A stretch of DNA of 64,000 bases from Iodidimonas sp. SYSU 1G8 (GTDB lineage Bacteria; Pseudomonadota; Alphaproteobacteria; SMXS01). Below are positions 41,768-63,627 of the stretch, piece after piece (the first letter of the stretch is position 1; every line of letters starts with the position of its first letter). The stretch spans positions 1,178,001-1,242,000 of the forward strand of contig NZ_JBBYXJ010000002.1 of assembly GCF_039655775.1 (NCBI RefSeq), written 5' to 3'. The position numbers were made by a program, and so were the translations under genes. Under the pieces are notes generated by a model, which worked only from the letters and a program-made list of their open reading frames with translations, was not told the origin of the DNA and searched no databases.

Positions 41768-42589
41768 TTAACGGAAGAGCGACATGATGCTCTGCGGCGC
41801 CTGGTTGGCGATGGACAGAGCCTGCACGCCCAGCTGCTGCTTGACCTGCAGGGCTTGCAGTTTCGCCGACTCCTTGGCCAGGTCGGCATCGACGAGGTTG
41901 CCGATGCCGCCTTCGATCACGTCGGACAGCTTGCTCACGAAGGAGGCCTGTCCGTCGATCTTGCGCGACGCCGAGCCCAGCGTGCTGAGGCTGTTCTTGA
42001 CGTCACTGGCGACCGTGTCCAGCGTGCCGATCATGGTCTTGGCGGTGGCCGCGTCCGTGAACGTCGCGCCGATGGCGGTGATCACCGAGGCATTGAAGTC
42101 CTGGTTGGCTACGTCCAGCGTCGCGCCGGCCGTATCCAGGGACTGCAGCGCCTTGACTTCGCCGCCGCCGGCCTTCAGCAGATTGGTGCCGTTGAACTCC
42201 GAGGAGTCCACGATGGTCTGGATCTGCGCCTTGAGAGCGTCGAAGTCCTTGCCCATCGCGTCACGGCTGGCCGTATCCACGCCTTCGTCGGCGGCTTCGT
42301 AGGCCTTGGCCTTCATCTGGTTGACGAGGTCCGAGATCTGTTCCGCACCGGCAACAGCCACGTCGGTCGCGCTCTTGGCGCGGCTCAGCGAGGAGCCGAC
42401 CGACTTCAGGCCGCCCAGGTCGCCGCGAAGCGTCTGGGCGATGGTGAACGATGCCGAGTCATCCTTGGTCGAGGCCACGTTCAGACCGGTATTGATCCGG
42501 CTCTGGACGGTGGACATGCCGCGGTTGGTGTCGGCGAGGCTCTGGAGGGCAGCCATCGCACCGGTGTTGGTATTTACAGAAAAGCCCAT
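41768..42589 (-). CDS. fliC: Flagellin
   Basis: 273 residues, a short alphaproteobacterial-type filament protein. The conserved N-terminal helix region (SVNTNTGAMAALQSLADTN, GLNVASTKDDSASFTIAQTLRGDL) and C-terminal region (ASRKIDGQASFVSKLSDVIEGGIGNLVDADLAKESAKLQALQVKQQLGVQALSIANQ, shown here only as landmarks) flank a small variable centre of about 60 residues. It is exported through the flagellar secretion system. The gene has an upstream TCCTATAAAAT element about 90 bases ahead, leaving room for a leader on which FlbT-type control acts in related bacteria, and a strong terminator behind. Confidence 0.96.
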   Translation of the reverse strand: MGFSVNTNTGAMAALQSLADTNRGMSTVQSRINTGLNVASTKDDSASFTIAQTLRGDLGGLKSVGSSLSRAKSATDVAVAGAEQISDLVNQMKAKAYEAADEGVDTASRDAMGKDFDALKAQIQTIVDSSEFNGTNLLKAGGGEVKALQSLDTAGATLDVANQDFNASVITAIGATFTDAATAKTMIGTLDTVASDVKNSLSTLGSASRKIDGQASFVSKLSDVIEGGIGNLVDADLAKESAKLQALQVKQQLGVQALSIANQAPQSIMSLFR

Positions 42590-42681
42590 AGTCGTTTCCT
42601 TTCTAGGATAAGGGGTCGCATTCTCGCGCCCTGGGCCAGAAGCGCTGGCCCTCGACGCCCGATGATTATCGGATCGTAATT

Positions 42682-42692
42682 ATTTTATAGGA
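42682..42692 (-). promoter_or_regulatory. TCCTATAAT-type element ahead of flagellin
   Basis: Minus strand reads TTTTTCCTATAAAATAATT, a one-base-longer variant of the element found before the other flagellar units. It starts about 93 bases before the flagellin ATG, so the transcript leader would be about 80 bases if it acts as a -10 region. No matching -35 block is evident. Confidence 0.6.
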
Positions 42693-45587: not shown

Positions 45588-45606
45588 CTAGGCAGTTTTT
45601 GCCGTG
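45588..45606. promoter_or_regulatory. CTAGGCA-N5-TGCCGTG motif (copy 1)
   Basis: CTAGGCAGTTTTTGCCGTG lies between divergent flgF and fliL, six bases from the TCCTATAATAGGA element. The same 7+7 fixed bases with a 5-base spacer recur, inverted, between flgE and flbT at 55921-55939. The form recalls FlbD-binding (ftr) sites of Caulobacter flagellar promoters from memory; I cannot verify this. Confidence 0.55.
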
Positions 45607-45612
45607 CGGTTA

Positions 45613-45625
45613 TCCTATAATAGGA
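45613..45625. promoter_or_regulatory. TCCTATAATAGGA palindrome between flgF and fliL
   Basis: Perfect 13-base inverted repeat (TCCTAT-A-ATAGGA) containing TATAAT on the plus strand and TATTAT on the minus strand. It lies 62 bases before flgF and about 72 before fliL, so one element could serve both directions. Same element as at 49504 and 55964. Confidence 0.7.
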
Positions 45626-49017: not shown

Positions 49018-49040
49018 TTATCCTATAATTTATAGGATAA
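49018..49040. promoter_or_regulatory. Perfect 23-base palindrome ahead of the LapG-like gene
   Basis: Half-sites TTATCCTATAA and TTATAGGATAA surround a single T. Both contain the TCCTATAA core, with the two TCCTAT/ATAGGA arms 5 bases apart instead of 1. It lies about 105 bases upstream of the minus-strand protease gene. Nothing starts on the plus strand here, so it probably acts only toward the protease. Confidence 0.65.
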
Positions 49041-49503: not shown

Positions 49504-49516
49504 TCCTATAATAGGA
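49504..49516. promoter_or_regulatory. TCCTATAATAGGA palindrome between FliL-like and small membrane protein genes
   Basis: Perfect 13-base palindrome identical to those at 45613 and 55964. It is 25 bases before the GTG start of the plus-strand gene and 44 bases from the minus-strand start. This is the second divergent pair that shares a single copy. Confidence 0.7.
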
Positions 49517-51465: not shown

Positions 51466-51502
51466 AGGCCTGCGACTGCCGGACCAGCGGCAGGGCAGGC
51501 CT
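51466..51502. terminator. Hairpin between convergent genes (probable bidirectional terminator)
   Basis: AGGCCTGC pairs with GCAGGCCT over an inner CTGCCG/CGGCAG stem with the loop GACCAG. It fills the gap between the solenoid gene stop and flgL stop. No T-tract follows in either direction, so it may act as a Rho-assisted or mRNA-stabilising hairpin. Confidence 0.55.
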
Positions 51503-52409
51503 AGCTGAAAAAATTGACCAGACTCAGTCCCGAGAGTTTCGCGAAGACCGAATAGGATGCGTCCAGCGCCGTCTTCTGCTGCGCCAGGTTGATGGCGACC
51601 TGCGCCAGGTCGACGTCTTCACTGTCCGAGATGATGGTTTTCAGGATGACGCCGCGCGCCTCCGCATTGTTGGCCAGCGTCTCTACGTGCGCCTGCTTGC
51701 GACCGTTCTCCGCATTGGCGGTCTGGATGGCGCCGATGCCCTTGTCCAACTGCTCGATGGCCTGTTTCAATGCCGCTTTCTGTGCGTCAGTCGGCATTTC
51801 GCCGAACGGGCCTGCAGCCGCCAGGGTGCGGAACGCCTCAAGCGCATCGCCGCCGATGGTGTGCGCGCCGACGCCGAAGCGAACATCGAGTCCATCGCCC
51901 AGGCGCGCGGTCTGCTGACCGTCGTCGCTGGCGAACGCGGCGTTGCCCGCGAGGCTCAGGGTGTCGGCGAGGCTGCCGACCTTGAACGGGGTTTCGCTGG
52001 TGCGCGAGCCGGCGAACAGGGGGACCCCGCCTTCCGTCGCGTTCAGGGTGTTGGCGAACGCGTCGAAGGCAGACTCGATCGTCGATTGCAGGCCCAGCGT
52101 ATTGCCGCGGCCGAGCGCCGTGAAGAGATCCTGCCGCAGCGTCGACGCGGTGCTCTCCGCCTGGGTGAGGTTGGCGTCGTAGAGCGACAGGGTCGTGGCG
52201 GTACGGGCCGCCACCGTTGCATAGGCTTCGGTCCTGCTCAGCATGGAGCGGGCCGAGATGCTTCTGACCGTATCGCCGCCCAGACCGGCATAGGTCGATG
52301 CCTTCTTGCCGCTGGCGACCTCCTGCTGGGTCGTGACGAGCTGCGCCTGGGCGCGCTGGATAGAGCCGGAAAGAGCTTGGTGAAAAACGGGGGTCGCGAC
52401 GCGGTTCAT
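51501..52409 (-). CDS. flgL: Hook-filament junction protein FlgL
   Basis: 302 residues of the flagellin superfamily. The N-terminal helix region (ATPVFHQALSGSIQRAQAQLVTTQQEVASGKKAS, landmark) and the C-terminal helix ending in AQVAINLAQQKTALDASYSVFAKLSGLSLVNFF resemble flagellin ends, with a smaller middle. FlgL sits between FlgK and the filament. Last gene of flgE-flgK-flgL, 11 bases after flgK. Confidence 0.95.
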   Translation of the reverse strand: MNRVATPVFHQALSGSIQRAQAQLVTTQQEVASGKKASTYAGLGGDTVRSISARSMLSRTEAYATVAARTATTLSLYDANLTQAESTASTLRQDLFTALGRGNTLGLQSTIESAFDAFANTLNATEGGVPLFAGSRTSETPFKVGSLADTLSLAGNAAFASDDGQQTARLGDGLDVRFGVGAHTIGGDALEAFRTLAAAGPFGEMPTDAQKAALKQAIEQLDKGIGAIQTANAENGRKQAHVETLANNAEARGVILKTIISDSEDVDLAQVAINLAQQKTALDASYSVFAKLSGLSLVNFFS

Positions 52410-52420
52410 GATCTGGACCT

Positions 52421-54511
52421 TCAGCGCATCATGTTGAGCAGGGTGTCGTACATATCGTTCGCCGTCGCGACGACGCGCGCGGCGGCGGAGTAGCTGTTCT
52501 GCAGAATCACCAGCTGGGCCAGTTCCTCGTCCACATTGACCCCCGAGAAGCTGTCACGGCGGCTCACGGCGTCGTCGAGGCGCGCGCTTGCGCTCGCGCG
52601 AGCGTCTTCGGCGCGCGACGCCTCGGCCCCCGCGCTGCTGATCAGCCGTGCCGCGGCCTGCCCCACGGTGGCGCTGCCGTACCGTCCCAGCGCGACGGGC
52701 GCGGCCAGTTGGTCGACATAGGCATTCGCGCCCTGCTTGTTCCCGGCGCCGATGACGGTTTGGCCCAGCACGGCGCCGGCCGGAACGCGGGCCAGCGGCA
52801 GGCGCGCGGGGGTGGCGGCGATATCCGCTCGGACGGACATCGAGGACACGGGACCCCGCGCGAGACCCAGCAGGCCCGAAAGGGATTGGCCCGTGCCCAG
52901 ACGGTCGGTGGTGTCGCCGGTGACCGCCAGGGTGACGCCGCCGCCCGCCGCCGATGGCTCGAACGCGAGCCGACCGGACTCATCCAGGGAGAAACCGCCG
53001 AAGCGGGACAGCGGACCCGCGTTCAATTCGCCCAGCATGTCCGCCAGGGCCGGCCCGGACGTACCGGTGACGTACTGGCTGGCGAGAATTCTGCCGCCGC
53101 CGTCGCGCAGTTCGAGGCCGAGCGACTGACCCGGCGCGATGCCGTGGGCGTCGGATGGCTGGAATCCGGGCGGAACCAAGGGGGCTTCCGACCGGATGAG
53201 ATCGTTGAGCCCGAAGAAGTGCGAAAAGCTCATGCCGGCGCGCACGGCCGGCATTGCCGGATCCTGGGCGACCGACACGCCGTTACCCGGGGCCGTCGCC
53301 CGCAGCGTGAAACGCCCGTCCGAAAATGACGCGGTCGCGGCCCCGCCGAGCCCGGTATTCATGGCGGCCAGCGCGTCGGCGATGGTGGCCGCCGGTCCAA
53401 GGGACGAGAAGTCGATGCTGGCAGCGGCGACGAGGGTGCCCGCTCCGTCGGTGACCGAGAGGCTGGCCGTTCCGGAGAAACCGAGCCGGTCGGCCGTCAC
53501 GAGGCCTGTATCGCGGCCCGCGAGCACGTTGGGCGCGGGTACCGCCGTGGCGGCATTCGATGCCGCGTTGAGCGAGTATGCCAGGGCGTCGCCGATGATA
53601 CTCAGTTGTTCGCTGAACAGGGGCAGAGCGCGGTCGCGCATGTCGAGCAAACCGCCCAGCTTGCCGCCGACTTGGGGCGAGACGATCACATCTCCGGTCG
53701 ACGGCCCTTGTTCGCCCGCCTCGCCGGAGAAGCGGACGCCGATCGCCGGTGACCCGGTCTGCAACCCGCTTCCCGAGGCGGCGGGATAGGTGAGCTGGCG
53801 CAGCCGCCGGTCGAGCAGCACGGTCCCGTCCGCGGCATCGATGGTGACCCGGCCATCCGGCTGATCGCGCACCGTGATCCCGATCAGACCACCCAGATCG
53901 CCAATGGCCGACATGCGCTGGCTGGCCAGCGCCGCGGTGCTGCGACCCATGCCTTCCGAACGGGCGATATTGTCGTTCAGATCGTGGATCCGGGTCAGCA
54001 GTCCGTTTACCCGGGTAACGGTGTCCTCGATTTCCGCCGCCGCGTTTGCCCGCAGGGCCGCAACGTCGTCGTCGGTCTGGCGGAGTGTCTCCAGCATGCT
54101 GGAGACATCGCCGACGAACACGGCGGCCGCCTCGGGACTGGTGCTGGACGCCGTCATGGCGATGGCGGACGACGTGAGCGCGTCGAGCCGCGCGGGCAGC
54201 GTCGCCGCCGAACCGGGCTGACCGATGGCGGCCTGTAACTGGTCGAGATAACCGGCGGTCACGTCGGCCCGGCCGGACATGGCCGCCCGGCCGTAGACCG
54301 CCGCCTCGAGAAACCGGTCCGCGATACGCTGGGACTCTCCGACCAGGACGCCGTTCGTCCGGCCGCCCGTGACGCCCGCCGACAAGGCGACACGCTCGCG
54401 CGCGTAGCCGGCGGTGCCCACATTCGCGATGTTGTTCGAGGCGGCGCCCATGCCGGCCTGGGACGCGGCCAGGCCCGACATGGCGGAATTGAGGATGCTG
54501 TTGAGCGACAC
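52421..54511 (-). CDS. flgK: Hook-filament junction protein FlgK
   Basis: 696 residues with a GTG start preceded by AGGATC. N-terminal motif LNSILNSAMSGLAASQAGM then SNNIANVGTAGYARERVAL, and the C-terminal EELAQLVILQNSYSAAARVVAT region, are the family ends. The middle is extended relative to enterobacterial FlgK (about 545), as is common in alphaproteobacteria. It forms the first junction ring on the hook. It is followed by flgL after 11 bases. Confidence 0.95.
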   Translation of the reverse strand: MSLNSILNSAMSGLAASQAGMGAASNNIANVGTAGYARERVALSAGVTGGRTNGVLVGESQRIADRFLEAAVYGRAAMSGRADVTAGYLDQLQAAIGQPGSAATLPARLDALTSSAIAMTASSTSPEAAAVFVGDVSSMLETLRQTDDDVAALRANAAAEIEDTVTRVNGLLTRIHDLNDNIARSEGMGRSTAALASQRMSAIGDLGGLIGITVRDQPDGRVTIDAADGTVLLDRRLRQLTYPAASGSGLQTGSPAIGVRFSGEAGEQGPSTGDVIVSPQVGGKLGGLLDMRDRALPLFSEQLSIIGDALAYSLNAASNAATAVPAPNVLAGRDTGLVTADRLGFSGTASLSVTDGAGTLVAAASIDFSSLGPAATIADALAAMNTGLGGAATASFSDGRFTLRATAPGNGVSVAQDPAMPAVRAGMSFSHFFGLNDLIRSEAPLVPPGFQPSDAHGIAPGQSLGLELRDGGGRILASQYVTGTSGPALADMLGELNAGPLSRFGGFSLDESGRLAFEPSAAGGGVTLAVTGDTTDRLGTGQSLSGLLGLARGPVSSMSVRADIAATPARLPLARVPAGAVLGQTVIGAGNKQGANAYVDQLAAPVALGRYGSATVGQAAARLISSAGAEASRAEDARASASARLDDAVSRRDSFSGVNVDEELAQLVILQNSYSAAARVVATANDMYDTLLNMMR

Positions 54512-54557
54512 GGAAGATCCTTACGGCGGGAAGAACGGCCTGTTCAGGCCGGCGGCG

Positions 54558-55859
54558 TCAGCGCTTCAGATTGTTGACCTCCTGCAGCATGTCATCGACG
54601 GTGGTGATCACTTTCGACGAAGCGCTGTAGGCGCGCTGGAAGCGGATCATGTTGGTGAATTCCTGCGCCAGATCCACGTTGGATGCCTCCAGCGCGCTGC
54701 TGACGATGCTGCCGGAGCCAAAGCTGCCGGGAGGGTTGATCGTCGGGCTGCCCGATTCGTTGGAGATCGAGTAGGCGTTGCCTGAAAGCCGGGTCAGTCC
54801 GTCCGGGTTGGCGAAGGTCGCCAGTGGCAACTGGAACACGGCGCGGGAGGTGCCGTCGTCGAAGATGGCGCTGACGAGGCCTGTCTTGGAAATATCGATC
54901 GAGGCGATGTTGTTGAGCAGGCCGCCGTCGAGCGACGAGGACAGCAGGGCGGATTCGCCGCCGAACTGGGTGAGACCGTTCACGGCCGCATCGCTTCCCA
55001 GATTGAGGGCGATCGGGCTCGAGCCCGCGCCATTGGTCCAGGTCACGGACAGCGGACTGAACAGCGTGCCGGTGGAGCCGGCCAGATCAAGGCTGCCATC
55101 GGCGTTGAAGGCGATGGCGCCGCTGGCGAGCAGGCCGCCCGCCGCGGTCACGTCGGTCGCCGGATCGGCGTAGATTTCGCCCGCCCACTGATTCACGCCG
55201 GTCTTGGCGAAGCCCATGGTGACGCGGTGCGAGCCGCCCTGGGCATCGAAGATGTCGAGCGAGCGCGTGAAGTCGGGGACCATGGTACCGCTGGCGAGGT
55301 CGCCGACCGCATAGGCCGCGGTCTGGACCGGCGTCGTCGACTGCAGGTTGGCGCGGATCGTGATCGCGGTGGTCGCGGTCGCGGTGCCGTTGAGATCGCC
55401 GAGACCCACGGGCTGCAGCTCGTCCAGATTGCCGGTGTTCACGTAGCCGCCCGCGCCGTCCAGCGGCCAGCCCTGCAGATAGTAGCCGCTGGTGTTGCGA
55501 AGGAAGCCTTCGGCGTCGGGCGAAAACGATCCTGCCCGGGTGAACGACACGGTGCTGTCGGGGGCCTCCGTCGAGCGGACGACGAAGAAGCCGCTGCCGT
55601 CGATCCCCATGTCGGTCTGGTTGCTGGACGTCTGCAGCAGGCCCTGTTTCGAGATCAGCATTTGCGGCGATGCCGCGACGCCGCCCGCCGTGTAGCTGCT
55701 GCTTGCCTGGCCGTCGACGACCAGCGACTTGAACTCGGTCTGCACGCCCTTGTAGCCGACGGTGTTGATGTTCGCGATGTTGTCCGCGACGCCCGCCATG
55801 GCGCTGGACTGGGCGCCGAGACCGGACACGCCCGCATAGAGAGCTGAATAGAGGCTCAT
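54558..55859 (-). CDS. flgE: Flagellar hook protein FlgE
   Basis: 433 residues from the ATG at 55859 (MSLYSALYAGVSGLGAQSSAM). NIANINTVGYKGVQTEFKSLV and the end SNVDLAQEFTNMIRFQRAYSASSKVIT are typical. The DMGIDGSGFFVVRS landmark is present. The middle domain is of moderate length, which fits a smooth hook. First gene of flgE-flgK-flgL. A TCCTATAAT element on the minus strand lies about 31 bases upstream of the ATG. Confidence 0.96.
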   Translation of the reverse strand: MSLYSALYAGVSGLGAQSSAMAGVADNIANINTVGYKGVQTEFKSLVVDGQASSSYTAGGVAASPQMLISKQGLLQTSSNQTDMGIDGSGFFVVRSTEAPDSTVSFTRAGSFSPDAEGFLRNTSGYYLQGWPLDGAGGYVNTGNLDELQPVGLGDLNGTATATTAITIRANLQSTTPVQTAAYAVGDLASGTMVPDFTRSLDIFDAQGGSHRVTMGFAKTGVNQWAGEIYADPATDVTAAGGLLASGAIAFNADGSLDLAGSTGTLFSPLSVTWTNGAGSSPIALNLGSDAAVNGLTQFGGESALLSSSLDGGLLNNIASIDISKTGLVSAIFDDGTSRAVFQLPLATFANPDGLTRLSGNAYSISNESGSPTINPPGSFGSGSIVSSALEASNVDLAQEFTNMIRFQRAYSASSKVITTVDDMLQEVNNLKR

Positions 55860-55889
55860 GGTGTTCTCCGTGGATGGCTTGGTGCAGAT

Positions 55890-55898
55890 ATTATAGGA
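55890..55898 (-). promoter_or_regulatory. TCCTATAAT element ahead of flgE
   Basis: Minus strand TTCCTATAATATC. It starts about 39 bases before the hook gene ATG. The right arm is missing, so the conserved part here is TCCTATAAT rather than the palindrome. That points to a -10-like role at this site. Confidence 0.65.
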
Positions 55899-55920: not shown

Positions 55921-55939
55921 CACGGCAATTTTTGCCTAG
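55921..55939. promoter_or_regulatory. CTAGGCA-N5-TGCCGTG motif (copy 2, inverted)
   Basis: The minus strand reads CTAGGCA-AAAAT-TGCCGTG. It lies between the flgE and flbT elements in the divergent promoter region. It shares all 14 fixed bases with the copy at 45588-45606 while the 5-base spacer differs, as expected for a protein-binding site. Confidence 0.6.
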
Positions 55940-55963: not shown

Positions 55964-55976
55964 TCCTATAATAGGA
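55964..55976. promoter_or_regulatory. TCCTATAATAGGA palindrome ahead of flbT
   Basis: Third exact 13-base palindrome, 24 bases before the flbT ATG and 105 bases from the flgE start. flgE also has its own separate copy at 55890. Downstream AGGAG of the element is not the ribosome site; AAGGTGAG nearer the ATG fits better. Confidence 0.7.
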
Positions 55977-55999
55977 GGAGCATAACCAAGGTGAGACCC

Positions 56000-56404
56000 A
56001 TGGCCCTGAGAATTTCCCTGCGTGATGGAGAGAAGGTGATCGTCAATGGCGCCGTGCTGCGCGCCGTCGGCCGCATGACCCTCGATGTGGAGAATGGCGC
56101 CGCCGTCCTGCGCGGACGCGAGCTGATGCAGCCCGACGAGGCCCGCACGCCGGCCAGCCGCGTGTATTTCGCCTGCATGATGGCCTATATCGATCCCGAG
56201 GGGCGCGCCGCGTATCAGGAGTCCCTGGTGTCCCTGATCGGCGATCTGCTGGAGGCGCTGCAGGCGCCGGACGCGCGGGCGTGCTGCATCAGGGTCGCCC
56301 AGAAGGTGGCGTGCCGTGACTTCTACCGGGCGCTGACCGATTGCCGCTGGCTGATGCGCTACGAGGCCGACGCGATGGCGCGTCTGCTGCCAGAGGCGGT
56401 GTGA
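56000..56404 (+). CDS. flbT: Flagellar biosynthesis repressor FlbT
   Basis: 134 residues from the ATG at 56000 (MALRISLRDGEKVIVNGAVL), preceded by AAGGTGAG. The FlbT pattern LRDGEKVIVNGAVL, VLRGRELMQPDEARTPASRVYFACMMAYI is clear. FlbT binds flagellin mRNA leaders and controls their stability in Caulobacter and relatives. No flaF is coupled; fliI follows after four bases instead, which is an unusual partner. Confidence 0.93.
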   Translation: MALRISLRDGEKVIVNGAVLRAVGRMTLDVENGAAVLRGRELMQPDEARTPASRVYFACMMAYIDPEGRAAYQESLVSLIGDLLEALQAPDARACCIRVAQKVACRDFYRALTDCRWLMRYEADAMARLLPEAV

Positions 56405-56408
56405 GATC

Positions 56409-57734
56409 ATGTCGCCCTTGTCGGCCGCCGCCGCCGCCCTGCGCGGAATGCCCGCCGAGCACCGCTTCGGTCAGGTCGCCGCCGTGCGCGGCGCCTTGAT
56501 CGAGGTCGATGGCCTGGGCGGTGCCGCGCGGGTCGGATCGCGTCTCGACATCGCGACGCGCGCGGGTACGCTCGCGGCGGAGGTCACGGGCATGGACCGG
56601 GGCGTCTGTCACTGCATGCCGTTCCAGGACCCGCAGGGCGTGGGCACCGGGATGCGCGCCGATCTGGCCGCCGGCCAGTTCGTGCTGCGGCCGTCTTTTG
56701 GCTGGCTGGGGCGCCTGGTCGATGGTCTCGGCAACCCCATCGACGGCAAGGGCCCTCTTCAGGCCGGCGCGCATCCGCAGCCGATCCGCGCGGCGGCTCC
56801 GCCCGCCGCGACGCGCGCCAGAGTCGGCGCGCGCATCGAGACGGGGGTGCGAGCCCTCGATCTTTTCGCATCGCTGTGCGTCGGACAGCGGCTGGGCCTG
56901 TTCGCCGGTTCGGGCGTCGGCAAGTCGGTGCTTCTGTCCATGCTGGCGCGCTGGACCGCGTGCGACATCGCGGTGATCGGCCTGATCGGTGAACGAGGGC
57001 GCGAAGTCCAGGAATTCGTCGAGGACGATCTGGGGGCCGAAGGTCTCGCCCGGAGCGTCGTGGTGGTCGCGACCGGCGACGAGCCGGCGCTGATGCGGCG
57101 CCAGGCGGCCTGGACGACCATGGCCATCGCCGAGCATTTCCGCGACCAGGGCCATCACGTCCTGTGTCTCATGGACTCGGTGACCCGCTTCGCCATGGCA
57201 CAGCGCGAGATCGGCCTGGCCAGCGGCGAGCCGCCGGCCACCAAGGGATACACGCCCACGGTCTTCGCCGAGCTTCCCCGTCTGCTCGAGCGCGCGGGGC
57301 CGGGACTGCCGGGCCAGGGATCCATCACGGGCGTGTTCACGGTGCTCGTCGATGGTGACGATCATGACGAGCCGGTCGCCGACGCGGTCCGCGGGATTCT
57401 CGACGGTCACGTGGTGCTGTCGCGGCGCATCGCGGAACGCGGGCGGTATCCCGCCATCGACATCCTCAAATCCGTGTCGCGGACACTACCACGCGCGCAG
57501 ACGGACAGGGAAAACGCGCTTCGGCTCGAGGCCCGTGGCAATCTCGCGCTCTATTCGGACATGGCGGAGATGGTTCGGCTTGGCGCCTATAGTACCGGTT
57601 CCGATGCACGGGTGGATCGGGCCGTGGCGCTTGAGCCGCGTATCGAGGCGCTGATCGGGCAGGGCAAGAATGACCGGGGGCGGCTCGACCAGGCCTTCGC
57701 CGATCTCGAAATGATCCTCGGCGGTGCGGCATGA
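56409..57734 (+). CDS. fliI: Flagellum-specific ATPase FliI
   Basis: 441 residues. The Walker A motif is GLFAGSGVGKSVL near 165-177, the Walker B strand is HHVLCLMDSVTRF, and the catalytic Glu follows in GERGREVQEFV near 195. The GEPPATKGYTPTVFAELPRLLERAG segment is typical of FliI/InvC. It energises export of rod, hook and filament subunits in the cytoplasm. It overlaps fliJ by four bases. Confidence 0.96.
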   Translation: MSPLSAAAAALRGMPAEHRFGQVAAVRGALIEVDGLGGAARVGSRLDIATRAGTLAAEVTGMDRGVCHCMPFQDPQGVGTGMRADLAAGQFVLRPSFGWLGRLVDGLGNPIDGKGPLQAGAHPQPIRAAAPPAATRARVGARIETGVRALDLFASLCVGQRLGLFAGSGVGKSVLLSMLARWTACDIAVIGLIGERGREVQEFVEDDLGAEGLARSVVVVATGDEPALMRRQAAWTTMAIAEHFRDQGHHVLCLMDSVTRFAMAQREIGLASGEPPATKGYTPTVFAELPRLLERAGPGLPGQGSITGVFTVLVDGDDHDEPVADAVRGILDGHVVLSRRIAERGRYPAIDILKSVSRTLPRAQTDRENALRLEARGNLALYSDMAEMVRLGAYSTGSDARVDRAVALEPRIEALIGQGKNDRGRLDQAFADLEMILGGAA

Positions 57735-58168
57735 CGACGCCCTATGACCCGGCGATTCGCATAAAGCGGCGGCAGGTCGACGATATCGCGCGGCAGATCG
57801 GCGACGCGCTCGCGCGCGTGGCCTCGCTGGATGAAGGGGTCGAGCAATTGGCAGGGGACGCCAGACGCGAGGCCATGTGCGGCGCGGAGGCGCCGATGGT
57901 GTCCTCTCATCACTATGCCGCGCGCCTGCGGACGCGCCGGGCCGGCCTCATGGAAGAACGCGCGTTCACGCAGGCAAGGCTCGTCAGCCTCCGGGCCGAA
58001 GCGGCCAGCGCCATTGCGTCGCTGCAGGCCATCGAGACCGCGGCCGAGAGGCACCGTGCCGAGCACAAACGCCGCCGTGACAACGCCGTCCAGGCGCAAC
58101 TCGACGACATGGTGGCCTCGTCGGTGGTTCGCCGACACCACGCGTCCAGGGAGCATCGAACGTCATGA
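57731..58168 (+). CDS. fliJ: FliJ-like export chaperone
   Basis: 145 residues of long helices with an Arg/Ala/Glu-rich coiled-coil pattern (IRIKRRQVDDIARQIGDALARVASLDEGVEQL, then RLRTRRAGLMEERAFTQARLVSLRAEAASAI). The position immediately after fliI, the length and the coiled coil identify it as FliJ-like, although sequence conservation in this family is weak. FliJ helps the FliI ring and the export gate. It overlaps fliI and the lytic enzyme gene by four bases. Confidence 0.78.
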   Translation: MTTPYDPAIRIKRRQVDDIARQIGDALARVASLDEGVEQLAGDARREAMCGAEAPMVSSHHYAARLRTRRAGLMEERAFTQARLVSLRAEAASAIASLQAIETAAERHRAEHKRRRDNAVQAQLDDMVASSVVRRHHASREHRTS

Positions 58169-59130
58169 TTTCGGAACTCGACAGCGTGCAGGCGGGCCCG
58201 GCCCGAAAGGCGGAGCTGATCAATGCCACGGCGCGGGCGCAACTGGCGCTTCCTCTCTGGCGGGCGGCGCTGGGAGATGGCGATGATGCGTCGGGAGCAG
58301 CGCCCGATCGGGTCGCCCCGGTGGCCATGGGCGGAGAATCGCTGTTCGCCCTGCTCGAACAGGCGGCTTTTTCCGGCCTGCCGGCGGCGCCGCCCGCGAC
58401 GGACTTGCGTAACCCGGTCGGTGTGGCGGCGCGTGAGACCGTGTCGGCGCCTCAGGCCATGGCGGTTACGGAAAAAGGCGCGGCCGCGACCAATCTGGGC
58501 GCCAACAGCCGTTTTGGCGGCGCCATCGCCGCCGCCAGCGAGCGGACGGGCATTCCCGCACAGGCGCTTGCCTCCATCATCGACGCGGAGGCGGCGAAGC
58601 AGCCGGATGGCGCGTGGAAGACCATGTCCCGTAATCCGCGCTCCAGCGCGGCCGGCCTCGGCCAGTTCCTCAACCGCACCTGGGTCGATGAAGCGGAACG
58701 CGACGGCACATGGCTGAACGCCGCAGCGCGCGAGCGGGGATGGATCGGCGCCAATGGCAAGATTTCTCCCGGCAGCCGCGCGGCGCTTCTCGCGTTGCGT
58801 TACGATGGCGAGGCCTCGATCCAGGCGACGGCGGACTACGCCCTCGCCAATCTCCGCTACTTGCGCAAGCAAGGGATCGAAGTGGGCAGCGGCGCCGAGA
58901 GCGTCGCCCGGACCGCGTATCTGGCGCACCATCTGGGCGCCGGAGATGCCGCCCGCTTCCTGGGCGACGGCATCAAGCCGGCCCGTGCCGAAATGCTTCT
59001 GACCGCACAGGTCGGGGCGCGTGCGGCGAGCACGCGCATCGCTCAAGCGGGCGACGCAGCCGGCGCGCACCGGGCCTGGCTGCTCGACTATGTGGATCGC
59101 CACGTGAACCCGGATCGATTTATCGCGTAA
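58165..59130 (+). CDS. Flagellar-operon lysozyme-like lytic enzyme
   Basis: 321 residues. A disordered N-terminal 110 residues (rod-scaffold-like) is followed by a lysozyme-fold domain (about 118-310) with candidate catalytic Glu142 in IIDAEAAKQ and the SAAGLGQFLNRTW motif typical of lytic transglycosylases. No signal peptide is seen, so it may be exported through the flagellar apparatus or by the rod, as FlgJ is. It probably cuts peptidoglycan so the rod can pass. Position after fliJ supports this. Confidence 0.8.
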   Translation: MISELDSVQAGPARKAELINATARAQLALPLWRAALGDGDDASGAAPDRVAPVAMGGESLFALLEQAAFSGLPAAPPATDLRNPVGVAARETVSAPQAMAVTEKGAAATNLGANSRFGGAIAAASERTGIPAQALASIIDAEAAKQPDGAWKTMSRNPRSSAAGLGQFLNRTWVDEAERDGTWLNAAARERGWIGANGKISPGSRAALLALRYDGEASIQATADYALANLRYLRKQGIEVGSGAESVARTAYLAHHLGAGDAARFLGDGIKPARAEMLLTAQVGARAASTRIAQAGDAAGAHRAWLLDYVDRHVNPDRFIA

Positions 59131-59153: not shown

Positions 59154-59162
59154 TCCTATAAT
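59154..59162 (+). promoter_or_regulatory. TCCTATAAT element ahead of the globin-coupled transducer
   Basis: CTATCCTATAATTC, 67 bases before the transducer ATG. The ATAGGA arm is absent. A TAAA at 59145 lies too close to act as a -35 element of FliA type. Confidence 0.6.
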
Positions 59163-59228: not shown

Positions 59229-60578
59229 ATGTCTGTTAGCAGTGACCTTATCGACCGCGTTTCCTTCGTGGGATTGGACAGGGAAGATAGTGATGCGCTC
59301 GCCGGCTTCCTGCCCGTCATCGAGCGCGAGCTGCCCGCCATCATCCGGCTCTTCTACGGCAATATGCGGAAATGGCCGCAGCTGGTCGCCATGTTCCGGG
59401 GCGACAGCGGGATGGATGCCGCAGGCCGCGCGCAGACCTCGCATTGGATGAAGCTCTTTTCTGGCCGGTTCGACGATGACTATGTTGTTTCCGTGCGCAA
59501 GATCGGTCTGGTCCATAGCCGTATCGGTCTGGACCCGCGTTGGTACATCGGCGGTTATTCTTTCATTCTGAACCATCTTTATCGGGTGGCCGCCAAGCAT
59601 CACACCAGCAGACTCAATCCGGCCGCGGCGCAGGCTGCCACGGGGCAGCTCATGGCGGCGATCAGCAAGGCCGTGATGCTGGACATGGACCTGGCGATCT
59701 CGGTCTACATCGAAGAGAATCAGGCCGTCTATGATCGCAAGCTGACTGCTCTCGCCGACGATTTCGAAACCAAGATCGGTAACATGACCGAAATGCTGGC
59801 GGTTGCCTCGACCGAGCTGGAAACCACGGCGCAGTCGATGACCAACACGACAACACAAGCCAACCAGCGCGCCATGACCGTGGCGGCGGCCGCGGAACAG
59901 GCCAGCGCCGGCGTTCAGACGGTGGCCTCGGCGGCGGAGCAGCTCACTTCGTCCATTTCCGAGATCAGCCAGCAGGTGAAGCGCTCGGCCCAGAGCACCG
60001 ACCGTGCCGTGGTAGACGCGCAGCGGACCGACATTATCGTGCGTGCCCTGTCGGAAGGGGCCGAGAAGATCGGCAATGTGATCGGCCTGATCACGCAGAT
60101 CGCCGGCAAGACGAACATGCTGGCGCTGAACGCCACGATCGAGGCCGCGAGGGCCGGCGAGGCGGGCAAGGCCTTCGAGGTGGTCGCAACGGAAGTGAAG
60201 AATCTGGCGACCCAGACAGCCAAGGCGACGGAACAGATCGAATCGCAGATCACGGAAATCCAGGCAGCGACAAAGGAGGCCGTCAGCGCCATTCAGGCGA
60301 TCACCTCCACCATCGGTGAGGTCGCGGCCATTTCCTCGAACATCGCGACCCAGATCGAACAGCAGAGTATCGCCACTCACGATATCACCAGCAACGTGCA
60401 ACAAACCGCCCAGGCGGCCCAGGAAGTGTCGATCAACATCGTCGGCGTCAGCCAGGCGGCCGAGGTCACCGGCGCAGCCGCCAAGGAGGTCTTTACGTCC
60501 GCGGCGAATCTCTCGGGGCAGGCCGATGCCTTGAGGGTCGAAGTTGGCAGCTTCGTCGCGAGCGTGCGCGCCGCCTGA
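59229..60578 (+). CDS. Globin-coupled methyl-accepting protein (HemAT-like)
   Basis: 449 residues, soluble. The N-terminal 175 residues are a protoglobin-type sensor with proximal His96 in [19 protein letters not shown]. The remainder is an MCP signalling domain with the tip [14 protein letters not shown] and heptad-rich arms ([34 protein letters not shown]). HemAT proteins sense oxygen through heme and signal to CheA for aerotaxis. The gene has its own flagellar-type promoter element and a strong terminator. Confidence 0.94.
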
Positions 60579-60663: not shown

Positions 60664-60711
60664 TTTTCCAATAAATTTATCTTTTCCAATAAAAATGTAT
60701 CCTTTATAAGG
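60664..60711 (+). promoter_or_regulatory. AT-rich promoter region of the sigma-factor gene with repeated TCC-ATAA elements
   Basis: Two direct copies of TTTTCCAATAAA (60664-60675 and 60682-60693, 18 bases apart) and TATCCTTTATAAGGG (60698-60712) lie in a stretch that is about 80 percent A+T in a GC-rich region. They are one or two bases from the TTTTCCTATAAA of the flagellin element. Three degenerate copies in a row suggest autoregulation. Confidence 0.55.
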
Positions 60712-60758
60712 GGTCCTGCCATCGCGAGGATGGCATCCCAGTGAGGGGGACCCGAAAA

Positions 60759-61835
60759 ATGTCGAAGACCACTATCGCCCTAGAAGCTCTCGTTGCTGAC
60801 GTCATCGCCAACACGCCGCGCGACGGCCAGTCATCGACCGCGCGGCAGCGCTTTAACGTGGACCGCGCCTTTGCCTCCATTCTGAAGCTGGCGGCGCCGC
60901 GCATTCGGCACTTCATCCGAAAATACGGTCTGATGGCGCATTGGGAAGATGCCGAACAGGCGGCGGCCATCGGCATTCACCGGGCCATCCAGGCCTATGA
61001 TCCGGAGAAGGCGCAGTTCACGACCTTCGTGAACTGGCAGATTCGGGGCGAGTTGCAGGCGCTGCGGTTCCGGCTGATGACCGACCAGCGGCCTTCCGCA
61101 AAAAAGGTGGAAGCGACGACCGTGTCGATGCAGGCCCTCGGCTATCGGCCCGATGGCGAGGACATGGATTTCGAGGCGACGATCGAGGACGAAGGCGCGC
61201 TTGCCCGCGTGGAATCAGAAGCGTCGGCCTATCTGGCCCACGCCGCCATCGACGCGCTGCTGGACCAGTATGTGAAGGATCAGAGGACCAGTGCCGTGGC
61301 GCTGCTCCAGCGTAAGATCAAAGGGCAGAAGTCCGCCGTTGGCGCAGATGGCGGTAAACCACGGCTCAAGGTCAACGCCATCGATCCCGCCGAGATCGCG
61401 GCGGTGGACGACAAGCTGCTGCGCGATCGGCAGATCGTCCGGCACCGCATTCTGGATCAGGTGTCGGAGGACGAGTTGGCCGCACGCTTCTCGCTGACCA
61501 AGGAAAGAATCCGCCAGATCACCAAGCATGCCGTGCGCGCCATGGCGAACCTGGTCGAGCGTCATCCAAGGTTCGCGCTGCTGGCCGAATATGGCCGCGC
61601 GCTCCAGGCCGCGCCCGCCACGCCGGTGGTGGCTCAGCCCAAGCCCGTCGCCATGGACGCCCAGCCCGCGGCGGTCAGCCTGCTGCCCGTTCCCCGGGTG
61701 CCGCAGACCGACAGAATCAGGGTCGTTGCCATTCAGGCGAACGGCTCCGTCACGTCCGACTTTCTGGCCGAGAGCTTCATGGCCGGCCACGCCAACGATC
61801 CTCATGCCAACGGATCCCACGCGGCGCATGGCTGA
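60759..61835 (+). CDS. Sigma-70 family sigma factor in the flagellar cluster
   Basis: 358 residues from the ATG at 60759 after GAGGGG. Region 2 spans about 40-107, with the core-binding part EDAEQAAAIGIHRAIQAYD and the -10-reading helix FTTFVNWQIRGELQALR. A variable middle (about 108-220) replaces region 3. Region 4 (about 225-268) has an HTH, LAARFSLTKERIRQITKHAVRAM. A Pro/Ala-rich tail of about 85 residues is extra. It is not a typical FliA by length. It could be the factor that reads the TCCTATAAT elements, including those in its own promoter; this is inference. Confidence 0.88.
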   Translation: MSKTTIALEALVADVIANTPRDGQSSTARQRFNVDRAFASILKLAAPRIRHFIRKYGLMAHWEDAEQAAAIGIHRAIQAYDPEKAQFTTFVNWQIRGELQALRFRLMTDQRPSAKKVEATTVSMQALGYRPDGEDMDFEATIEDEGALARVESEASAYLAHAAIDALLDQYVKDQRTSAVALLQRKIKGQKSAVGADGGKPRLKVNAIDPAEIAAVDDKLLRDRQIVRHRILDQVSEDELAARFSLTKERIRQITKHAVRAMANLVERHPRFALLAEYGRALQAAPATPVVAQPKPVAMDAQPAAVSLLPVPRVPQTDRIRVVAIQANGSVTSDFLAESFMAGHANDPHANGSHAAHG

Positions 61836-61950: not shown

Positions 61951-61959
61951 TCCTATAAT
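61951..61959 (+). promoter_or_regulatory. TCCTATAAT element ahead of the second transducer
   Basis: TTATCCTATAATGATAGGG, 81 bases before the ATG. A partial right arm (ATAGGG) is 4 bases from TCCTAT, so arm spacing varies between sites (1, 4 or 5). CACGGCA lies just upstream, reminiscent of half of the TGCCGTG motif. Confidence 0.6.
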
Positions 61960-62031: not shown

Positions 62032-63627
62032 ATGCTTGGATTTTTCGAAGACTGGCCCCTCCAGCGCTCCAACAACGCCGCTTTTGCTCTGGGCGGCCTG
62101 ACAATCGTCGCGGCCGGCGGCCTGGCGCTTCTGGCCGGACAGGATATGACGGTAACGGTCCTGGTGGCGGCGGCATCGCTGGCGAGCCTTCTTGGCATCT
62201 GGCACGTAACGGGTCGCCGCCTGGCGGCGGCCTTGTCCCGGCTGGCCGCGGACGCCCATGAGACCGGGGCTCTCGCGGCCGAGCGGAAGGACGTGATCGG
62301 ACAGATTGCCACGGCGATCGTTCGGCTGCGTGACGAGGCGGCGGCCCAGAAGCGACTTCGTGAGCAGCAGGGGCAGGAATACGGGGCGATCACCGCAGCG
62401 CTCGCGACGGGCCTCGAAGCCCTGCGTTCCGGCGACCTGGCGACCAGTGTTTCAGCGGCGGTACCACCGGAACAGGAAGCGTTGAAAACGGCGTTCAACG
62501 AGGCGGTTGTCCGTCTGCGCGAGTTGATCGCCGCCGTTAATCGCACGGCGGGCGGTATCACGCTGCGCAGCGACGAGATTGCCCGGGCGGCCGAGGATCT
62601 CGCGCGCCGGACCGAGAGCAGCGCCGCCAGTCTCGAACAGAGCTCGGCGGCGCTGGTCACGATCGATGACAGGCTGCGCATGGCCGCGCAATTGGCAACG
62701 GGCACGGCGAACCGGGCCAACGAGGCGGTGACGGGCGTGAAGCAGGGCGTGGATCTGGCCCACGGCGCCGTCGATGCGATGGGCCGCGTCCAGGAAAGCG
62801 CGAAGGGGATTGCGTCGGTTATCGGCGGTCTCGACAAGATCGCGTTCCAGACGCGGGTGCTCGCCATGAACGCCGCCATTGAAGCCAGTCGGGCGGGAGA
62901 CGCCGGCCGCGGCTTCTCGGTCGTCGCCGATCTGGTGAATTCGCTGGCGATGCGTGCCGAGGAAGAGGCCAAGCGCGCGCGTGACCAGCTCGCGGCCGCG
63001 CGGAGCGATATCGACATCGCGGTAGAGGCGGTGCATCTGGTGGACGGCACGTTCAACGGCATTTCCGACGAGATGTCGGAAGTCCACAGCCTGCTCGAGC
63101 GCATGGCGACCGACCACAAGACCCAGTCGGCGGTCATTTCCGAGATCAGCAACGCCATTCGTACCATGGAGCAGGTGACGCAGCAGAACGCCGCGACGGC
63201 CGAGCAGGCGGCGGCCGCATCGCGGAATCTTCACGGCGAGGTCGCCGCTCTGGGCGACCAGGTATCCCGCTTCCGTACCGGGGCCCCTGTGAGCCGCGCG
63301 TCAGCTGGTGCGAGGCTGGTCACCAGGATGCCTGAGAGCCCTGCCGCTCCGGCCCCGGCGACCACCGTGGCACGCACCGAGCCTCGCGCGATGGCGGAGC
63401 CGGCCCGAGCGCCTGTCGAGGCACCGGCCAGCGCAGCCGCCAAGCCCGCATCCGCGAAAGCGGTCATCATGCCGATCCGGCCCAAGGCCGCTCCGGTGGT
63501 CCCGGAAAAGACCGTACAGCTTCCGGTCAGGACCGTGCCGTCTCCGGTGAAGACCGTCTCGCCGCCAGCCAACGTCAATGATGTGCCCGCGTCGGCGGTC
63601 GGCGACGACGACTGGAGAAACTTTTAA
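62032..63627 (+). CDS. Methyl-accepting chemotaxis protein with C-terminal CheR-tether motif
   Basis: 531 residues. Two adjacent transmembrane helices (about 17-36 and 41-58) with almost no periplasmic loop, then a cytoplasmic helical region with a HAMP-like part and the signalling domain (about 170-420). The tip, DAGRGFSVVADLVNSLAMRAEEEAKRA, is a degenerate version of the usual hairpin. A 105-residue Ala/Pro/Val-rich linker ends in DWRNF at the very C-terminus, which fits the x-W-x-x-F pentapeptide that tethers CheR and CheB. It probably senses an intracellular or membrane signal. Confidence 0.92.
   Translation: MLGFFEDWPLQRSNNAAFALGGLTIVAAGGLALLAGQDMTVTVLVAAASLASLLGIWHVTGRRLAAALSRLAADAHETGALAAERKDVIGQIATAIVRLRDEAAAQKRLREQQGQEYGAITAALATGLEALRSGDLATSVSAAVPPEQEALKTAFNEAVVRLRELIAAVNRTAGGITLRSDEIARAAEDLARRTESSAASLEQSSAALVTIDDRLRMAAQLATGTANRANEAVTGVKQGVDLAHGAVDAMGRVQESAKGIASVIGGLDKIAFQTRVLAMNAAIEASRAGDAGRGFSVVADLVNSLAMRAEEEAKRARDQLAAARSDIDIAVEAVHLVDGTFNGISDEMSEVHSLLERMATDHKTQSAVISEISNAIRTMEQVTQQNAATAEQAAAASRNLHGEVAALGDQVSRFRTGAPVSRASAGARLVTRMPESPAAPAPATTVARTEPRAMAEPARAPVEAPASAAAKPASAKAVIMPIRPKAAPVVPEKTVQLPVRTVPSPVKTVSPPANVNDVPASAVGDDDWRNF

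Follow-up and report, generated by a model that had tools for sequence, protein, structure and literature searches.

A putative flagellum-dedicated sigma factor and a proposed composite -10 element in the flagellar cluster of Iodidimonas sp. SYSU 1G8 and sphingomonads

Introduction

In Caulobacter, the regulator FlbD represses early flagellar genes and activates later ones (PMC3096577). Apart from RpoE6 of Azospirillum brasilense, no flagellum-specific sigma factor is known in the Alphaproteobacteria (PMC12826043), and Swit_1281 of Sphingomonas wittichii, a putative Fli-type sigma-28 factor, is named and left unstudied in the available part of the report that mentions it (PMC8921679). A literature search in which subscription journals were thinly covered returned no description of the element TCCTATAAT in connection with flagella, or of sphingomonad flagellar sigma factors.

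The stretch of DNA analyzed here (64,000 nucleotides, hereafter the window) holds at positions 41768-64000 (contig C2 of genome G000) part of a flagellar gene cluster that is most similar to those of sphingomonads (FliI about 75% identity), possibly as a result of horizontal transfer. Searches of the family and order to which the organism belongs gave only 10 genomes, 9 of them without the cluster, and the comparison was centred on sphingomonads instead. FlbT and the sigma factor described below are both absent from these nine order-mates, which suggests that the cluster was either gained by transfer or lost in other members of the order.

Results

The sigma factor gene and its relatives

The gene for the sigma-70-family factor occupies positions 60759..61835 of the plus strand, from an ATG at 60759 to the stop codon at 61835, and encodes 358 amino acids with regions 2 and 4 and a disordered tail. 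The relatives share this start methionine, which argues against the GTG further upstream, at 60741, as the true start. The protein scores 25.8 bits against Pfam Sigma70_r2 (cut-off 24), 23.9 bits against Sigma70_r4 (just below the cut-off of 24.1) and 39.9 bits against TIGR02937 (cut-off 42.9), and the presence of regions 2 and 4 in this order assigns it to the sigma-70 family. The layout described in the earlier note on this DNA, with regions 2 and 4 and an atypical middle in place of region 3, was borne out, the middle of about 120 residues giving no region-3 match. In the predicted fold (an AF2 model with pTM 0.45, which makes TM-scores over the whole length uninformative), the protein is helical up to residue ~284 and disordered over residues ~286-358 (pLDDT <50), and the top Foldseek matches in the PDB are mostly sigma factor chains. 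Among relatives, the core-binding and melting residues of region 2 are nearly invariant, and region 4 is degenerate in several of them. Judged from its sequence, the ORF is a real, conserved sigma-70-family protein.

The protein scores far below every cut-off of the curated FliA, RpoH, RpoD and RpoS models, and with 30.2 bits against a cut-off of 189.6 it falls outside the NCBIfam FliA_WhiG family. It also differs from ECF (group 4) factors in its length of 358 residues, its long middle and its position apart from the six ECFs of the genome. The earlier note had proposed a phylogenetic placement as a check that could refute its reading, and the outcome favoured that reading: the flagellar sigma family formed a clade of its own (SH-aLRT 90), with a sister family beside it, apart from FliA (97; 15 FliA sequences, with the sigma factor outside), RpoH-like (99), RpoD and ECF (97) sequences; the tree comes from a quick search and has long branches, which makes the deeper position of the clade unsure. 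The factor appears to represent a previously uncharacterized type, with its own lineage, in the flagellar cluster of sphingomonad-like bacteria.

The family was found at 27 loci in Sphingomonas, Sphingobium, Stakelama and relatives, mostly at 50-60% identity. In 18 of the 27, the gene order is that of the window, namely flgL-flgK-flgE divergent from flbT-fliI-fliJ and a muramidase-like gene, followed by the sigma gene; the remaining loci are mostly second copies outside the flagellar cluster, with flanks devoid of TCCTATAAT except at L028 and L041. A distant homologue in genome G263 is likewise encoded within a flagellar cluster. In the order of one relative, homologues (E < 1e-14) occur in ~31 of 299 genomes, many of them belonging to the shorter, non-flagellar sister family, which consists of ~230-aa proteins with strongly reduced C-termini.

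Several peculiarities of these copies were recorded. The second, non-flagellar copy in six Sphingomonas loci (L020, L021, L023, L029, L032 and L037) is preceded by a different conserved motif, GTAAGGTGCGACTACCATAAGGGTTCCC. At L028 (Sphingomonas sp. IBVSS2, contig000001), the upstream flank of the sigma copy is non-flagellar and the downstream flank flagellar, probably through misassembly or recombination between two copies. In many Sphingomonadales, sister-family genes are preceded by an inverted repeat, TAGGTA-N5-TACCTA, that is conserved among them, and lie near a response-regulator gene (L171-L175, L177), which points to an uncharacterized sigma-like family of its own.

A probable promoter element confined to the flagellar cluster

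The window contains 7 exact copies of TCCTATAAT plus close variants, and 14 matches with at most one mismatch against 1.5 expected. In the whole 3.92 Mb genome there are 14 exact copies, all located at operon promoters inside a 45-kb flagellar region (C2:1223613-1268630), compared to a single copy of the reversed element used as a control. The element and its one-mismatch variants precede fliC, fliL-M, a transglutaminase-like gene, a TPR gene, flgE-K-L, flbT-fliI and two chemoreceptor genes, as well as flgI-J, fliG-H, fliF-N-flbD-flhA, fliK-flgD, flaF, motA and fliN/O/P. Almost all of them point at the gene, with 16-95 bp between element and start codon; a palindromic pair (49021-49037) departs from this pattern, as do three operons whose likely true start is downstream of the mechanically assigned ORF start.

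Within the window, the promoter of the flagellin gene fliC (41768..42589, minus strand) spans 42665..42692 (minus) and combines TCCTATAAA (42684-42692) with TCCGATAAT (42665-42673). Copies of TCCTATAAT mark the fliL-fliM promoter (45613..45621, plus), the upstream region of a 655-aa TPR-type gene (49504..49512, plus; true start about 49537), the promoters of the protoglobin chemoreceptor gene at 59229 (59154..59162, plus) and the chemoreceptor gene at 62032 (61951..61959, plus), and the two sides of a divergent promoter. On one side of the latter lies the flgE element (55890..55898, minus) in front of flgE-flgK-flgL (51501..55868, minus), and on the other the element of the flbT-fliI-fliJ-muramidase operon (55964..55972, plus), which is conserved in sphingomonads and precedes the module (55991..59130, plus) that is located directly upstream of the sigma gene and conserved with it. 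The pair at 49021..49037 comprises TCCTATAAT on the plus strand and TCCTATAAA on the minus strand, the minus copy preceding the transglutaminase-like gene (48912-48169); it is embedded in a 23-bp near-perfect palindrome (49018-49040, TTATCCTATAATTTATAGGATAA) that might be a bidirectional promoter. Four elements of the cluster, at 45613, 49021, 49504 and 55964, are quasi-palindromic (TCCTATAATAGGA), and most element sites in relatives lack the palindromic half.

Most sphingomonad clusters with the sigma gene also contain the element. Summed over genomes, 18 sigma-bearing sphingomonads contain 190 copies against 69 of the reversed control, whereas the nine order-mates without the sigma gene contain 13 against 27. 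In most loci, TCCTAYAAT is present on both sides of the divergent flgE-flbT promoter, and where the sigma gene occupies this place, nearly every locus retains the flbT element. The exact element was not found in the stretches read of two sigma-bearing clusters, L162 and G168; L162 has GCCTATGAT at flbT. Alignment of the element sites revealed no fixed -35 column upstream of TCCTATAAT.

The sigma gene itself was said in the earlier note to lie behind an AT-rich promoter with degenerate copies of the element, which would allow autoregulation. The composition and the copies stood up: the 60 bases ending at 60712 have an A+T content of 78%, and the stretch at 60664..60712 (plus) carries TTTTCCAATAAA twice, 18 bp apart (60664 and 60682), and TATCCTTTATAAGGG at 60698. 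The autoregulation fared less well. Two occurrences of TCC[AT]ATAA in the 62-bp upstream stretch were reached in 0 of 3000 dinucleotide shuffles, whereas TCCTATAAT with at most two mismatches occurs twice against 0.55 expected (P 0.09, marginal), and the TCCAATAAA copies are degenerate and not conserved in relatives. Since they are not conserved and marginal at this threshold, we rejected the degenerate copies as proof of autoregulation, which is thus weakly suggested. Upstream of the sigma gene, relatives have TCCTATAAT at ~215 bp and an inverted version (CATATAGGA; GTAGGANTACATATAGGA) at ~105 bp.

A second palindrome and the decay of FlbD

A second palindrome, GGCAANNNTTGCC, is present with at least 8 of 10 positions upstream of 59 of the 146 distinct element sites (~40%), with 65 matches where base shuffles gave 3.9. 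With few exceptions, its distances from the element fall into three tight classes (8-12, 24-29 and 44-46 bp), the 24-29 bp spacings at flgE and flbT and the 8-12 bp spacings at fliL and fliF in several genomes. At the remaining 87 sites (~60%), the element is kept with neither the box nor a -35. In the window, one such palindrome (GGCAATTTTTGCC, 55924..55936) lies between flgE and flbT, at 27 and 25 bp from the two copies of TCCTATAAT there, and another (GGCAGTTTTTGCC, 45591..45603) precedes the fliL element by 9 bp. We infer that the palindrome is an FlbD site, as proposed for the flgE-flbT copy. The GGCAAAAATTGCC palindrome was also considered as a sigma-54 promoter and rejected, the GG-N8-GC spacing being wrong for -24/-12.

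FlbD is encoded in the cluster outside the window (C2:1251063-1252412), and FlbD is the best of the bEBP models for it (NF050807, 470 bits, the next model scoring 246), at a score below the curated cut-off of 750. Aligned to ZraR, it has GAFEGA in place of GAFTGA and YLRD in place of FLDE, changes that set it apart from sigma-54-activating bEBPs, and it would not plausibly activate sigma-54. Seven relatives' clusters encode FlbD with GAFPGA, GAFAGA or GDFPGA and a broken Walker B motif, so that both motifs are affected in eight clusters (G000, that of the window, and G011, G012, G015, G016, G022, G027 and G283). In about four more, the AAA+ domain is missing: between fliN and flhA, all that remains of FlbD is a ~94-aa HTH protein in G024 and a receiver with an HTH in G318, and the domain has apparently been deleted in G010 and G026, because the matches to the end pieces of FlbD lie ~25 bp apart in the former and overlap in the latter. 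Both GAFTGA and Walker B (LDE) are intact in 30 of 30 high-scoring FlbDs from genomes of the same order without the sigma gene; these controls belong to other lineages, so the correlation between the sigma factor and FlbD decay is partly phylogenetic.

RpoN is present in the genome, and in a pattern scan of the cluster none of the intergenic flagellar positions held a sigma-54-like site. The genome encodes no FliA, its top match to the FliA model being RpoD, and no Pfam match to FlgM was obtained among the cluster genes scanned, which include part of the small ORFs. Another enhancer-binding protein, with intact GAFTGA and Walker B, is encoded at the edge of the cluster (C2:1275647-1276987; L091:17647-18987, minus), next to a 1057-aa hybrid histidine kinase.

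Discussion

Building on what was seen directly, that is, the gene, its synteny, the distribution of the element, the phasing of the box, the decay of FlbD and the absence of FliA, we consider it likely that the protein serves the flagellar cluster as its dedicated alternative sigma factor and reads TCCTATAAT, with FlbD as a plain DNA-binding regulator. The earlier proposal of a sigma factor serving a TCCTATAAT flagellar regulon in place of FliA/sigma-54 is supported by the separate clade, the lack of FliA and of intergenic sigma-54 promoters, and the decayed FlbD. Much of the case comes from two features outside the note, the FlbD-type box and the decay of FlbD. The link between the factor and the element, which it presumably binds, follows from their co-localization and co-occurrence. 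Region 2 (FTTF..WQIRGELQSLRFRLMTDQRPSAKKV) would recognize a composite -10 consisting of an extended TCC and a core TATAAT, and the factor would bring RNA polymerase to almost all flagellar operons; no conserved -35 is present. FlbD, having lost the sigma-54-activating machinery, may act through DNA binding alone, with the sign of regulation set by spacing: a box 24-29 bp upstream, at flgE and flbT, probably activates, and one 8-12 bp upstream, at fliL and fliF, probably represses early operons, a dual role that would echo that of Caulobacter FlbD.

We lean, if only slightly, toward the fuller scenario in which a new sphingomonad sigma lineage arose from a local sigma-like family and, with one composite -10, took over the early, middle and late flagellar promoters, while FlbD, freed from sigma-54 and with its ATPase decayed or deleted, came to activate or repress for this sigma factor depending on spacing.

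TATAAT is the housekeeping -10 as well. This consensus would allow RpoD to read the TCCTATAAT promoters with the help of FlbD by class II activation, leaving the sigma-like protein to a subset of genes or to another role; the missing -35, together with the phased activator box at many sites, is compatible with such a scheme, and NtrC-type regulators of Caulobacter without GAFTGA have been reported to work with RpoD (PMC12421884). We nevertheless regard this explanation as unlikely: the invariant TCC is foreign to RpoD promoters, some 60% of the sites keep the element with neither box nor -35, the exact 9-mer occurs nowhere else in the genome, and order-mates that possess RpoD and lack the sigma gene show no enrichment of the element.

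Less probable still is a protein that no longer works as a sigma factor, being either a sigma-derived DNA-binding regulator with the TCCTATAATAGGA palindromes as its operators or an anti-sigma decoy. The weak or marginal Pfam scores, the degenerate region 4 of several relatives and the truncated sister family would fit such a role, as would the quasi-palindromic extensions at four sites, which might be bound by a dimeric repressor or activator; against it stand the near-invariant core-binding and melting residues, the orientation and start-codon distances of the elements, which fit a -10, and the absence of the palindromic half from most sites in relatives. That the cluster is still under sigma-54/FlbD control, with the elements incidental or serving basal transcription, is highly improbable, since, although RpoN and FlbD are both encoded, no intergenic sigma-54 promoter was found in the cluster and the relatives' FlbDs are missing either the threonine of GAFTGA together with the acidic residue of Walker B or the entire AAA+ domain.

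If correct, the preferred reading, a dedicated sigma factor reading TCCTATAAT, would mean that this factor replaces the sigma-54/FlbD arrangement known from Caulobacter. It would provide a flagellum-specific sigma factor for a large and environmentally common alphaproteobacterial group, with a predicted promoter code that is testable in culturable Sphingomonas, and a natural case in which an enhancer-binding protein lost its ATPase once its sigma partner had been swapped, in a stepwise rewiring of the hierarchy.

Among known systems, FliA/sigma-28 (e.g. of Pseudomonas and E. coli) is likewise a sigma-70-family factor dedicated to the flagellum, as is proposed here, and region 2.3-2.4 is similar in both (FTT...IRG...LR...D..PRS/RPS). 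The FliA -10 GCCGATAA agrees with TCCTATAA of the present element at 6 of 8 positions, and TCC+TATAAT resembles the composite -10s of both sigma-28 (GCC+GATAA) and sigma-32 (CCC+CATNT). Unlike FliA, the present factor belongs to a separate clade, its element is found at early and late operons alike rather than at late ones only, and the conserved sequence is TCCTATAAT instead of GCCGATAA with a TAAA -35, no such -35 having been seen. The Caulobacter FlbD-sigma-54 hierarchy shares FlbT, FlaF, FlbD and a palindromic site at flagellar promoters with the present cluster, which differs in a FlbD devoid of GAFTGA/Walker B or of AAA+, in the lack of detected sigma-54 promoters and in the dedicated sigma factor. 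RpoE6 of Azospirillum brasilense is also an alternative sigma factor of an alphaproteobacterial flagellar cluster; by its description, however, it is an ECF factor with the anti-sigma Asf6 that controls a minor flagellin and metabolism (PMC12826043). Swit_1281 is again annotated as a sigma factor and lies in the flagellar cluster of a sphingomonad; it may well be orthologous, and the available part of its report describes no function, element or relation to FlbD (PMC8921679). Finally, Caulobacter NtrC without GAFTGA is an enhancer-binding protein that has lost its coupling to sigma-54 and works at other promoters (PMC12421884), whereas here the protein concerned is the flagellar FlbD, its AAA+ domain is fully lost in some species, and its proposed partner is a dedicated sigma factor.
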